Part shown: positions 12,427-16,654 of the stretch, piece by piece
Layout: each line of letters starts with the position of its first letter
Position numbering within the stretch: the stretch's first letter is position 1
Origin: a virus
IMG/VR virus record: IMGVR_UViG_3300030380_001349
Span: 1 to 21,766 of that record
Reading direction: 5' to 3' (one strand)
DNA: 21,766 nucleotides
Made by a program: the position numbers and the translations under genes
Notes under the pieces: model-generated
Databases searched by the model: none
What the model saw: only the letters and a program-made list of their open reading frames with translations
Told to the model about the DNA's origin: nothing

Positions 12427-12843
12427 GTGGAGCTTCCAAAGGTAAATATAGCTGTTGCTGCTAGTGCGGTGGTGGCAATAGTTAGTACCGTGGGCGGTGG
12501 TATATGGTATGCAAGCTCTCAAGCTTCAATTATTGAAGGTCTAACAGAGCAAGTTGAAACTCTTACCATTGAGAACAACGCAACTGATCGCACAAATCTT
12601 ATTCGTGATGTAGAAGAAAACACTGAACGAATAGATGAAATTATAGATTACATCATAGAAGTAGAGGAAGACGGTGGCGAAACTATTGATGAAATCTATG
12701 AAGAGTTTGAAGACGTATACGAAACTCAAGAAGGGTTTTTGCTTCAGTTTAACCAGATCATTAAACTGCAAGCTAGGATCAAGACCCTAGAAAACACAAT
12801 GGAATACCTAACAAGACGCCCGATTAACTCAGACGGCAGGTAG
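12427..12843 (+). CDS. Membrane-anchored acidic coiled-coil protein (spanin-like layout)
   Basis: The 138-residue product begins with a hydrophobic segment (about 8-29, VAASAVVAIVSTVGGGIWYA) preceded by one lysine, then a long, very acidic helical domain (LIRDVEENTERIDEIIDYI and EDGGETIDEIYEEFEDVYE). The hydrophobic segment would act as an N-terminal anchor with the coil in the periplasm, as in an inner-membrane spanin. No lipoprotein partner with a lipobox was found nearby. The start is an inferred GTG with a weak GGGGTG site just upstream; nearby ATGs are in other frames. Function is inferred from layout and context. Confidence 0.55.
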   Translation: MELPKVNIAVAASAVVAIVSTVGGGIWYASSQASIIEGLTEQVETLTIENNATDRTNLIRDVEENTERIDEIIDYIIEVEEDGGETIDEIYEEFEDVYETQEGFLLQFNQIIKLQARIKTLENTMEYLTRRPINSDGR

Positions 12844-12845
12844 CA

Positions 12846-13301
12846 ATGGACCCCATTACAATTCTTGCAGGGCTGAAGACAGGACTGGCGGCGGGAAAAA
12901 CCGTAGCAAGCCTGTCAAAAGAAATAGGAAACTTCTTTGATGCAACGGATGCAGCCAAGAAAAAGTTGCAAAAAAAAGGCGTTACTAGTTCAGACGTTAA
13001 TTCTGTTGCGCTAGACAGATGGGCAAAAGAGCGTGAGGCTGCACAAGCTGAAGAAGAGCTAAGAGAGTGGGTAACTAATAATCTTGGTTTATCTCAGTGG
13101 CAGGCGCTGTTGCGGATTAGAAAAGAAGTTTTACAGGAAAAACGCGAAGCAGAGGCTCAGGCGAGGCGTGAGGCACAGGAAAGGGCTGATTTTGCACTTA
13201 CCTTAATAGCAATCGCTTTGCTACTGACAACGGCTTTTGTTGGCTCTGTGGGATATCTACATTACATGGGTTGGATTGACGTAAGGGATTATTTTCCATG
13301 A
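12846..13301 (+). CDS. Coiled-coil protein with C-terminal membrane anchor
   Basis: This 151-residue protein starts MDPITILAGLKTGLAAGKTV and continues ASLSKEIGNFFDATDAAKKK, an N-terminal block familiar from uncharacterised marine phage proteins. A charged coiled coil (about 60-114, rich in E, A and R) leads to one membrane segment (116-138). The C-terminal tail is short (GWIDVRDYFP). It is tail-anchored, opposite in orientation to the preceding 138-residue protein, so the two might face each other across a membrane pair; that is speculation. Its TGA overlaps the next ATG by four bases (ATGA). Confidence 0.6.
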   Translation: MDPITILAGLKTGLAAGKTVASLSKEIGNFFDATDAAKKKLQKKGVTSSDVNSVALDRWAKEREAAQAEEELREWVTNNLGLSQWQALLRIRKEVLQEKREAEAQARREAQERADFALTLIAIALLLTTAFVGSVGYLHYMGWIDVRDYFP

Positions 13302-13474
13302 TTTATGTTTTAGTATTCTTGCACTTTATAAATACCGATAACTTAAAATATTTTCAAATTGCTACATTTTCGGATAAAGAAGAATGTCTACAACAGGCAG
13401 AAAAAGCAAAAGTAATGGTAACACACAACTCAATGAAGGTGGTTTGCCTCGAAGTGAACAGCCCATCGTCATAG
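13298..13474 (+). CDS. Small 58-residue protein in the lysis cluster
   Basis: ATG 13298 overlaps the TGA of the preceding gene (ATGA) and has AAGGG at 13283-13287. The product is MIYVLVFLHFINTDNLKYF, then QIATFSDKEECLQQAEK and ending VVCLEVNSPSS. The layout (hydrophobic beta start, T-F-x-x-K-E-E-C helix, final V-C-L-E-V strand) resembles small alpha/beta proteins found in phage lysis regions. Without it, 13302-13383 would be unexplained. It overlaps the next open frame by 91 bases in another frame, so one of the two may start later or not be translated. Confidence 0.55.
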   Translation: MIYVLVFLHFINTDNLKYFQIATFSDKEECLQQAEKAKVMVTHNSMKVVCLEVNSPSS

Positions 13475-13605
13475 AAAAAGGTAAAAAGTTTGCAGCTTAT
13501 GATAAAAATGGTAAGTTAATTATATTGGGATATAATAGAAAGATAGTACAGGAGTATGCAAATGCCCAAAGCAAAGTACGATTTGAACGACAACGGAAAG
13601 ATTGA
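13384..13605 (+). CDS. Small basic hypothetical protein, start uncertain
   Basis: The frame from ATG 13384 encodes 73 residues, with a low-complexity N-terminus (STTGRKSKSNGNTQ) and a more convincing second half: IVIEKGKKFAAYDKNGKLII then LGYNRKIVQEYANAQ. The first part overlaps the 58-residue gene in a different frame and has only a weak ribosome site, so translation may instead begin at TTG 13444 (AAGGTGG just upstream). The 3' end overlaps the next gene by 44 bases. No known family is recognised. Confidence 0.4.
   Translation: MSTTGRKSKSNGNTQLNEGGLPRSEQPIVIEKGKKFAAYDKNGKLIILGYNRKIVQEYANAQSKVRFERQRKD
13550..13554 (+). promoter_or_regulatory. Ribosome binding site deciding the start at 13562
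   Basis: AGGAG ends 7 bases before ATG 13562. An in-frame ATG at 13556 is only one base from it and would be too close. Confidence 0.7.
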
Positions 13606-13867
13606 TCCAGATGAGCGAGATATTATGCTTGAGGATCGCCGCCGTATGATGGAAGACGCTGATGCCAAGAGAGACGCACAGTTACGCATGACTTGGTTTG
13701 CTTTAAGCGGTATGGTTCTATACCCATTTGCCATTGTGCTTGCTTCTTGGATGGGATTAGAGCAAGCATCTAATCTGCTTGCAGATATAGCTGCGGTATA
13801 TGTAGTTGCTGTATCTGGCGTGACAGCGGCATACTTTGGGTTTACCAACATGGGGAATAACAAATGA
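13562..13867 (+). CDS. Holin-like two-segment membrane protein with N-terminal EF-hand loop
   Basis: The 101-residue product begins with a canonical 12-residue calcium-binding loop, DLNDNGKIDPDE (7-18), with acidic or amide side chains at loop positions 1, 3, 5, 9 and 12, glycine at 6 and isoleucine at 8. A charged helix follows (EDRRRMMEDADAKRDAQ), then two membrane segments (about 45-65 and 72-93). Proteins with this order occur in marine phages beside endolysins, and a holin or holin-regulating role is likely but unproven. Only one EF-hand is visible, whereas calcium sensors usually pair two. The TGA overlaps the next ATG by four bases. Confidence 0.65.
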   Translation: MPKAKYDLNDNGKIDPDERDIMLEDRRRMMEDADAKRDAQLRMTWFALSGMVLYPFAIVLASWMGLEQASNLLADIAAVYVVAVSGVTAAYFGFTNMGNNK

Positions 13868-14247
13868 TAGGACAGTTATTAGGACCAGTAGCAGGTTTAG
13901 CCAGTAGCTGGCTTGATGCAAAGACTACAAAGCAAGCTGCAGAAGCAAAGCTAAAACTTACAGAGGCCGAAGCGAAAGCCAAGATATTATTATCTGAAAA
14001 GACTAGCGTTGCTGATTGGGAACGTATTATGGCGGAGAACAGCGGTTCTAGCTGGAAAGACGAATTTTTCGTAATTGTGCTGTCAATTCCACTTATTTTA
14101 GCCTTTGTGCCGGGTGCTGAAGGTATTGTGGACAGAGGATTTGAGCAGCTTCATAAAGCACCTGACTGGTATTTTTACAGTTTGGGTATTGCAATTTCAG
14201 CCTCTTTCGGTGTGAAAGGGTACAAACAATTTACGAGGAGAAAGTAA
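13864..14247 (+). CDS. Holin-like protein resembling the GTA holin (3TM) family
   Basis: This is a 127-residue protein. A weakly hydrophobic N-terminus (MIGQLLGPVAGLASSWL) is followed by a charged helix (19-47), the block SWKDEFFVIVLSIPLILAFV (63-82) carrying the first clear membrane segment, and PDWYFYSLGIAISASFGVKG (100-119) carrying the second. The SW-[KR]-DE...IP and P-x-W-Y blocks are like those of three-segment holins of gene transfer agents and related phages. It probably makes membrane lesions that free the endolysin. It is joined by ATGA to the preceding gene and TAATG to the endolysin gene, forming a tight lysis unit. Confidence 0.65.
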   Translation: MIGQLLGPVAGLASSWLDAKTTKQAAEAKLKLTEAEAKAKILLSEKTSVADWERIMAENSGSSWKDEFFVIVLSIPLILAFVPGAEGIVDRGFEQLHKAPDWYFYSLGIAISASFGVKGYKQFTRRK

Positions 14248-14858
14248 TGGCCTTTGAAGCATTAAAACTATTGCAAGAAAAGTGTGGAGTAGATCCAGAT
14301 GGTGCATTTGGACCAAATACAGCCAAGGCTATCGTTTCTCACTTTGAGCTATCACCAGAGCGTGGCGCACACCTGTTAGGTCAAACTGTACATGAAAGTG
14401 GGTCATTTAAATATACATCAGAGAACCTTAACTATTCTGTAGATGCTTGTCTCAAGGTGTTTGGCAAGTATTTTAAAACAAAAGAAGAAGCAGAGCCGTA
14501 TGCAAGGAATCCCAAAGCTCTTGCTGATAAGGTATATGGACACCGTGGCGGGAACGAAGGCCAAGGCTATGCGTGGCGTGGTCGAGGATTTTTACAATTA
14601 ACGCACAGAGATAATTATAGAATGTTTGCAAGCGATATGAGGCTACCAGAGGTTATGGATAACCCTGATCTTGTGGCAAATGATTATGCTATGGACTCAG
14701 CTTTGTGGTTCTTCAAACGTAATAATATATGGAAAATATGCGATGAAGGTGTAAATGATGACACAATAAAGCGTGTCACTAGGGTGGTGAACGGCGGTTA
14801 TAATGGACTAGATCACCGTGTGAAAGAAACAAAAAAGATTTACGAGTGGATATCTTAA
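14247..14858 (+). CDS. GH19-family endolysin (muramidase/chitinase-like)
   Basis: The 203-residue enzyme shows a GH19 lysozyme domain. The catalytic acid is probably E50 in QTVHESGSF, with E59 in SENLNYS as the second acid. The blocks KVYGHRGGNEGQGY (95-108), RGRGFLQLTHRDNY (111-124), then DYAMDSALWFFKRN and VNGGYNGLDHR, are all typical. Residues 4-30 (LKLLQEKCGVDPDGAFGPNT) look like a short peptidoglycan-binding segment. It has no signal peptide, so it would need a holin, and two candidates lie just upstream. It cleaves cell-wall glycan at the end of infection. The stop codon is inside a 10-base-pair hairpin. Confidence 0.9.
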   Translation: MAFEALKLLQEKCGVDPDGAFGPNTAKAIVSHFELSPERGAHLLGQTVHESGSFKYTSENLNYSVDACLKVFGKYFKTKEEAEPYARNPKALADKVYGHRGGNEGQGYAWRGRGFLQLTHRDNYRMFASDMRLPEVMDNPDLVANDYAMDSALWFFKRNNIWKICDEGVNDDTIKRVTRVVNGGYNGLDHRVKETKKIYEWIS

Positions 14859-15679: not shown

Positions 15680-16654
15680 ATGGCTGATCCATATGTAACA
15701 GTAAATCGCCGTCCAGAATATCTTGAATTACGAGAAAAAGCTCTGCTTGATGCAATTTTTGGGGAGTATAACAAAAGCAAAGGTTTTACAGGGGGTCTTA
15801 TACAAGATCCCGATATGTTTAAAATTGCTCCATTTAGATTAGCAGAGCAGGTAGGTAGAGATCCTGTAACAGGTGAGATAACAGATTTTGGACTCGAAAC
15901 ATACGGATCTCAATTTCTTCAACAAGATACAGATGGTGATGGCGTACCTGATTTTATGGAGCGTACCACACCATATTTTGATCAGGCGGAAGCAGGATTA
16001 AGAGAAGGTATTGGATCTTTAGAACAAGCTAGAGATATTATTGCAGATCCAATGTCTGTTCAAAATTTTATGAACCCATTTACACAGGCAGTCATAGATG
16101 AGACAGAAAGAGATATTGACCGACAAGGCCAAATAGCTTTGAATCGAGCGGCTGATCAGGCAATAAAAGCAGGAGCATTTGGTGGATCTAGACAGGGCAT
16201 ACAAGCCGCAGAAGTTGAAAGAAACATCATGGATGCGAAGCGTAAGGCCACCACAGATCTTAGAATGAAAAACTTTGCACAGGCTCAGAAAGCTGCACAA
16301 GAAGCAGGTAGACTTGTCGGTGGTATAGGTCAGTCTTTTGGTACATTAGGCACTCAAGCGGCTGATACTGGTCGTGTTTTTGGAGCTATGACACCTGCTG
16401 ATCTAGCTTTTATGCAAGGTACAGGAGAGGCTGAAAGAGCTTATCGTCAGCAAATGATTGACACAGCTAGACAAGAGTATCAAAGACCGACTGAACAAGC
16501 TTTATTACCATACAACTACGCATACGGTGCGTTATCTGGAACGCCATCTGCAGGTCTTTATAGCACAACACAGCAACCAATGTATGGCACAAACCCAATG
16601 TTGGCTGGTATAGGAGCATATACCGCCCTTCAAGGTATTGGGCAGCAGCAGTAA
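15680..16654 (+). CDS. Internal virion protein with AFGGSR motif, cassette 2 (paralogue of 3954-4631)
   Basis: The 324-residue protein contains residues 132-207, from NPFTQAVIDE to AFGGSRQGIQAAE (166-178), aligning without gaps with residues 45-120 of the shorter protein in cassette 1 (28 of 76 identical). It has an additional N-terminal region of about 130 residues, including DTDGDGVPDFME (83-94), a thrombospondin-type-3-like calcium-binding segment. The C-terminal half is rich in A, G, Q and Y (IDTARQEYQRP, then YNYAYGALSG). It probably assembles inside the capsid or is ejected with DNA. A GGAG site precedes the ATG, which lies 2 bases after the previous stop. Confidence 0.65.
   Translation: MADPYVTVNRRPEYLELREKALLDAIFGEYNKSKGFTGGLIQDPDMFKIAPFRLAEQVGRDPVTGEITDFGLETYGSQFLQQDTDGDGVPDFMERTTPYFDQAEAGLREGIGSLEQARDIIADPMSVQNFMNPFTQAVIDETERDIDRQGQIALNRAADQAIKAGAFGGSRQGIQAAEVERNIMDAKRKATTDLRMKNFAQAQKAAQEAGRLVGGIGQSFGTLGTQAADTGRVFGAMTPADLAFMQGTGEAERAYRQQMIDTARQEYQRPTEQALLPYNYAYGALSGTPSAGLYSTTQQPMYGTNPMLAGIGAYTALQGIGQQQ

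Follow-up and report, generated by a model that had tools for sequence, protein, structure and literature searches.

The EF-2TM gene and its surroundings

The window analysed here is the whole of a 21,766-base virus record (IMG/VR IMGVR_UViG_3300030380_001349), in which the gene at 13562-13867 (+) encodes a 101-amino-acid protein (MPKAKYDLNDNGKIDPDERDIMLEDRRR...GNNK by translation). Residues 7-18 (13580-13615, +; DLNDNGKIDPDE) read D-L-N-D-N-G-K-I-D-P-D-E, and translation thus bears out the perfect 12-residue EF-hand loop of the original prediction. We refer to the family as EF-2TM, for EF-loop two-span membrane protein, and to the member in the window as P0001. The putative start is preceded, at a distance of 7 nt, by a Shine-Dalgarno-like AGGAG (13550-13554, +), and it is this spacing that makes 13562 the better choice; an alternative in-frame ATG at 13556 lies only 1 nt from the same AGGAG and was rejected. 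An opposite-strand, TTG-initiated open reading frame (13516-13863, -) was likewise set aside, the homologues sharing the plus-strand frame.

Besides that of EF-2TM, no canonical EF loop occurs in the window's six frames; residue-shuffled open segments of at least 60 amino acids (93 segments) give an expectation of 0.022, and such a loop appears in 56 cases when the protein itself is shuffled 200,000 times. Taken alone, the single loop in the window protein is therefore suggestive only; as chance is possible for one loop, we took conservation across homologues as the decisive test.

The EF-2TM stop codon overlaps the start of the following gene (ATGA at 13864), which encodes a second membrane protein (13864-14247, +) matching phrog_2524 at 3.2e-33, without a Pfam match. 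This protein is perhaps a distant relative of GTA_holin_3TM, since alignment of the phrog_2524-type family to that of the GTA holins gives an hhalign probability of 90 over 31 columns. Its stop codon in turn overlaps the start (TAATG at 14245) of a GH19-type endolysin gene (14247-14858, +; PHROG endolysin at 5.6e-52, PF00182 at 1.2e-7, above cut-off), and these stop/start overlaps suggest that all three genes are translationally coupled.

Upstream sits a co-conserved gene for a 151-amino-acid protein with one predicted membrane span (12846-13301, +; phrog_32327 at 1.5e-6), relatives of which lie one to three genes ahead of EF-2TM (-1 to -3) in 125 of 324 homologous loci, that of Limnohabitans phage DC31 included. 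It is preceded by a gene for a one-span, weakly Rz-spanin-like protein (12427-12843, +), which matches phrog_1009 (function unknown) at 2.1e-5 and the Rz-like spanin family phrog_739 at 0.0037. A 73-amino-acid open reading frame (13384-13605), relatives of which occupy position -1 in 64 of the 324 loci, also overlaps the EF-2TM start.

Conservation of the loop

Homologues were gathered from viral contigs, genome contigs and phage records, giving 324 loci with that of the window (some contigs being present twice), 261 of them distinct over the last 85 residues. Loci were read from stop to stop, and a loop was called canonical if it had D at position 1, D/N/S at 3 and at 5, G at 6, a hydrophobic residue at 8 and E at 12. 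The original prediction had named conservation of positions 1, 3, 5 and 12 in homologues as a check, and failure of that conservation as its refutation; the loop came through strongly, being canonical in 317 of the 324 loci and in 256 of the 261 distinct sequences. In the remaining seven, the loop is cut by a contig end (L037), has an ambiguous codon at position 1 (L163), carries E12Q (L177), E12D (L298), T at position 5 (L299) or T at position 8 (L300), or is missing altogether (L324, the homologue of the soil Stenotrophomonas phage DLP_6).

Queries that contain the loop could favour matches that keep it, but this explanation was rejected, as queries cut at the loop end still recover the loop. 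In two such scans the loop was present in 74 of 75 and 77 of 80 new loci, where about ten of the 75 are contigs already in the set, the 74 include two loci whose match began upstream, and the query of the second scan, like some alignment rows of the first, starts at loop position 12.

Clustering at 70% identity left 36 representatives, of which 32 are canonical, three near-canonical and one (DLP_6) loop-less. Among the 35 that bear a loop, positions 1 and 6 are invariant, with E at position 12 and I, V or L at position 8 each in 34 of 35; when 91 columns are ranked by conservation, positions 1 and 6 come out on top and position 12 shares third place with Q40, in a ranking made slightly circular by the choice of rows by loop pattern (one of the 36 being dropped).

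The loop is canonical in the freshwater Limnohabitans phage DC31 and in phages phiM12 and phiN3 of Sinorhizobium meliloti, a soil bacterium. For this reason the loop is not peculiar to seawater, and the link once drawn between calcium binding and the contrast of cytoplasm with seawater is unsupported as stated. A scan of genome contigs with one short pattern returned four loci, by which rarity of EF-2TM in bacterial genomes is weakly shown. In all 11 phage records first matched, as in the phage records matched later, the protein is labelled 'hypothetical protein'.

Membrane spans and predicted fold

Beyond the loop, the charged helix and two membrane segments described from the sequence are also recovered by prediction. 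The best 19-residue hydropathy windows of P0001 fall at residues 43-61 (13688-13744, +; mean 1.76) and 72-90 (13775-13831, +; mean 1.96), and although this method always picks two windows, a separate threshold count likewise gives two spans; for the protein of phage CRP-1, the threshold count detects one span only. An AlphaFold model of P0001 (38 alignment rows, mean pLDDT 82.8) shows coil at residues 1-15, a 48-residue helix (16-63) that contains the first span, and two further helices (67-75 and 77-100) over the second; together they form a hairpin with pLDDT of about 90 in the spans. In each of 125 representatives, the flanks carry more Lys and Arg residues than the inter-span stretch, a lenient sign, given that this stretch (mean 8.8 residues) is shorter than the flanks, from which both ends of the protein are predicted to be cytoplasmic.

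The model has no helix entering the loop; its exit helix begins at residue 16, or loop position 10, which is where the exit helix of EF-hands begins. In a model of a second subfamily (mean pLDDT 78.2; the input included seven residues upstream of the likely ATG), a short helix (20-24) lies ahead of the loop and the exit helix again starts at position 10. Searched against the PDB with Foldseek, this second model gave 78 rows, the best 50 all EF-hand-like by title, none significant (best E 1.6) and many spanning about 20 residues at 1-1.6 Å; the fold search of the PDB with the P0001 model gave no significant match and no EF-hand, and the viral library gave one match at E below 0.001 (A0A516M8G9, 43% identity), probably a homologue.

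Comparison of the family profile with PDB sequences points the same way, in that the best 60 of 182 rows are all EF-hand calcium-binding proteins or calmodulin constructs by name, with a best E of 0.0024 and a top row that sums several weak stretches. PF13202 is matched by 14 of 19 members at E up to 0.1 (best 0.0012); P0001 stays below the curated cut-off of the Pfam EF-hand families (13.1 against 25.9 bits; PF13202/PF00036). With known EF-hand proteins (PF00036, PF13202; calmodulin, EhCaBP1), then, EF-2TM shares the 12-residue loop (D1, D/N3, D/N/S5, G6, I/V/L8, E12) and the point of departure of the exit helix, but differs from them in having a single loop near the N-terminus, joined directly to a membrane helix, and, in the case of P0001, in its modelled lack of an entering helix and its sub-threshold Pfam score.

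Glu rather than Asp at loop position 12 favours calcium over magnesium, and the EF-2TM loop very probably binds calcium. The affinity of P0001 may be weak, since its model is without an entering helix. By analogy with EF-hand structure, the conserved hydrophobic residue at position 8 of a loop that stands alone suggests that EF-2TM molecules pair with one another.

Lysis-cassette context

An endolysin gene lies on the same strand at positions -4 to +5 in 133 of the 261 distinct sequences (the nearest at +1 to +3 in 110). It encodes an M15 enzyme in 65 of these, GH19 in 42, GH108 in 14 and GH24 in 12, where enzyme families were assigned by Pfam on representatives and extended by profiles of our own; the counts come from profile searches because single-linkage clusters merged unrelated genes, such as tape measures with GH108. 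Enzymes of four families thus alternate in the role of endolysin while EF-2TM is retained, which is what one would expect of a lysis-cassette component. Where the neighbour is an M15 gene, a gap of at most 15 nt was found in 17 of 17 cases. Elsewhere, EF-2TM is found in a T4-type baseplate-hub operon (44 sequences, considered below), with a spanin-like gene only (23, which are weak evidence, as the 12427-12843 family is only weakly identified as spanin-like), with a holin-slot gene only (nine) or with none of the genes sought (52, of which 23 have less than 2 kb of sequence on one side).

Phages CRP-1 and CRP-9 carry EF-2TM directly before an M15 endolysin gene and then a u-spanin-like gene, CRP-345 has u-spanin-like and endolysin genes 3' of EF-2TM, and Limnohabitans DC31 has an Rz-like gene and an endolysin gene. 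All four cassettes combine EF-2TM, a spanin-like gene and an M15 endolysin, with no neighbour from the three holin-slot families at -4 to +5; in CRP-9, CRP-345 and DC31, EF-2TM is moreover the sole non-spanin gene with two predicted spans over that range. In these four phages EF-2TM is the best holin candidate.

The products of the spanin-like genes of CRP-345 (L081:4290-4655) and CRP-1 (L087:4755-5096) each have a lipoprotein-like signal and a C-terminal hydrophobic span and are likely unimolecular spanins; the records label the former 'spanin2 family' and the latter hypothetical.

Relation to known holins

Class II holins of the S21 type have two spans with both ends in the cytoplasm. EF-2TM resembles them in its size of about 100 amino acids, its two predicted spans and charged flanks, and its frequent proximity to an endolysin gene, but differs in showing no convincing sequence kinship, in carrying an EF loop on a predicted cytoplasmic stalk and in having rather conserved spans; those of holins are usually less conserved than the spans of EF-2TM seem to be. 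Against holin profiles, no convincing match was obtained, the best Pfam holin family scoring 0.019, in three of 19 members, and the PHROGs that members match well are all of unknown function. One of these, phrog_27150, belongs to the same family (the Sinorhizobium phiN3 protein matches at 1.2e-95, and five of the 19 members match, at best 9.2e-12), but comes with no function and is not reached by the window protein. Annotated holin genes appear for CRP-822-type roseophages in an excerpt of PMC12629253, and may or may not be members of the EF-2TM family.

The GTA_holin_3TM (PF11351)/phrog_2524 proteins share cassettes with EF-2TM, and their genes often follow it immediately, but PF11351 is matched neither by P0001 (E up to 1) nor by the 19 members (E up to 0.1), and hhalign of EF-2TM to the phrog_2524 family reaches a probability of 50 only. 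The idea that both stem from one ancestral hairpin was therefore not accepted.

A model for EF-2TM, and its competitors

Synthesising these observations, we tentatively propose that EF-2TM is a holin-like lysis protein with a calcium-binding loop, class-II-like in its arrangement, or else the partner of a holin. A role of some kind in lysis is probable. EF-2TM would form an inner-membrane hairpin of the lysis system with both ends in the cytoplasm, resembling a class II holin, and would present one calcium-binding EF loop, on the cytoplasmic side, at the far end of a long helix that continues directly into the first span. In the resting cell, free cytoplasmic calcium would lie below the level that fills a lone EF loop; once the membrane leaks or the cell is de-energised, external calcium could enter and fill the loops, ordering the N-terminal stalks and allowing neighbouring loops to pair in the manner of EF-hands. 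We speculate that such pairing might drive an abrupt assembly and triggering of the membrane lesion and so set the moment of lysis, and that in the window phage EF-2TM might act together with the adjacent GTA-holin-like protein to free the GH19 endolysin. The several parts of this model carry different weight. The loop and its conservation, the order of the genes and their overlaps are seen directly, and the helix and two spans are predictions; the topology, holin activity, calcium binding, pairing and triggering are inferred. That calcium exerts control over lysis ranges from doubtful to possible, and that it is the trigger itself, making these proteins a widespread calcium-triggered holin family, is doubtful.

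The 'holin-like' label given to the protein at the outset stands in part. Two spans, small size, the charge pattern and a frequent position in lysis cassettes are in its favour, but in many cassettes, that of the window included, a better holin candidate comes next downstream, and since the next gene of the window (the GTA-holin-like one) has the better holin kinship, EF-2TM may be a holin partner. In its strictest form this becomes the alternative that EF-2TM is a holin modulator, an antiholin or timing partner of the adjacent GTA-holin-like protein, released or engaged by calcium and making no lesion of its own. The gene at +1 is of the phrog_2524 type in 81 of 324 loci, of the GTA-holin type in 13 (one of which matches PF11351 at 7.7e-24) and of cl92 (phrog_6637) in seven, and the ATGA overlap is found in 52 of the 81 phrog_2524-type neighbours, an arrangement that would fit equal production of the two partners. 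CRP-1, CRP-9, CRP-345 and DC31, on the other hand, have no recognised partner at -4 to +5, and PF11351 is unmatched in the whole of the CRP-1 and CRP-345 records, though there the positive control was unmatched too. On balance we regard a pure modulator as unlikely.

Another explanation dispenses with sensing and treats the loop as a structural clamp, whose permanently bound calcium or magnesium does no more than cap the long helix and make it rigid. Placed singly at the N-terminal end of a 48-residue helix, the loop could indeed serve as a helix cap, and its retention in freshwater and Sinorhizobium phages is compatible with this, but the near-constant Glu at position 12 and hydrophobic residue at position 8 (34 of 35 each) are not obviously needed by a cap; free cytoplasmic calcium is also probably too low to keep a lone loop constantly filled. 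We consider such a clamp improbable.

The 44 distinct sequences set in the T4-type baseplate-hub operon have gp26/gp51-type genes beside EF-2TM and no stand-alone endolysin gene nearby. In HTVC008M, Melnitz, phiM12, phiN3 and DLP_6, EF-2TM sits between gp51 (or an unnamed equivalent) and a large gene, which is tape-measure-like in HTVC008M (by PHROG) and phiM12 (by a note in the record) and unnamed in Melnitz. This setting raises the alternative that EF-2TM acts in the tail or in ejection, as a membrane protein helping the tail tube and tape measure to assemble or the DNA to enter, with the vicinity of endolysin genes a by-product of late gene order. Two profiles, applied to seven T4-type phages from among 712 gp26-bearing records (four cyanophages, Vibrio phage K362, Stenotrophomonas phage Ps15 and Aeromonas phage Ah1), found EF-2TM in none of them, with the proviso that very distant copies could escape, profile A2 missing the true phiN3 member that A5 finds. 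The hub operon can evidently work without EF-2TM, which on this account looks accessory there, and we rate the tail factor as distinctly improbable.

In DLP_6, the large protein encoded directly after the loop-less EF-2TM homologue (L324:4301-6463), in the position of a tape measure, has an embedded GH108 domain (1.4e-26).

Finally, a small two-span protein missing from the seven T4-type phages examined could be an inner-membrane superinfection exclusion protein similar to T4 Imm, but with endolysin genes frequently close by and the next gene of the cassette overlapped, this is very improbable indeed.

Implications for T4-type phages and for lysis timing

On the doubtful reading of EF-2TM as a calcium-triggered holin, it would be the missing holin of T4-type phages of SAR11 and OM43 bacteria (such as HTVC008M and Melnitz), and it provides a concrete holin candidate for marine phages of this kind. 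For Melnitz, the portion of PMC9004378 consulted names no classical holin and reports no lysin-like genes other than gp67; CsgGF curli-type pores are put forward there as the analogue of a pinholin, a role for which EF-2TM is another candidate.

Holin timing is explained for the most part by expression level and membrane energy. An EF loop as the most conserved feature of a membrane protein family of lysis cassettes would add a specific ion as a further trigger or brake, and the near-invariance of the loop suggests that calcium takes part in host lysis by EF-2TM phages. The open-licence papers searched, an excerpt of PMC6356626 among them, held no description of a holin-like family that bears an EF-hand loop, and the EF-hand protein of phage phiAC-1 is, in the part of PMC5795418 that covers it, given no tie to a holin.

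A further loop is encoded elsewhere in the window, at 15926-15961 (+) within the open reading frame 15680-16654. It reads DTDGDGVPDFME, a DxDxDG loop with Pro at position 8, and resembles the type-3 calcium repeats of thrombospondin more than an EF-hand.
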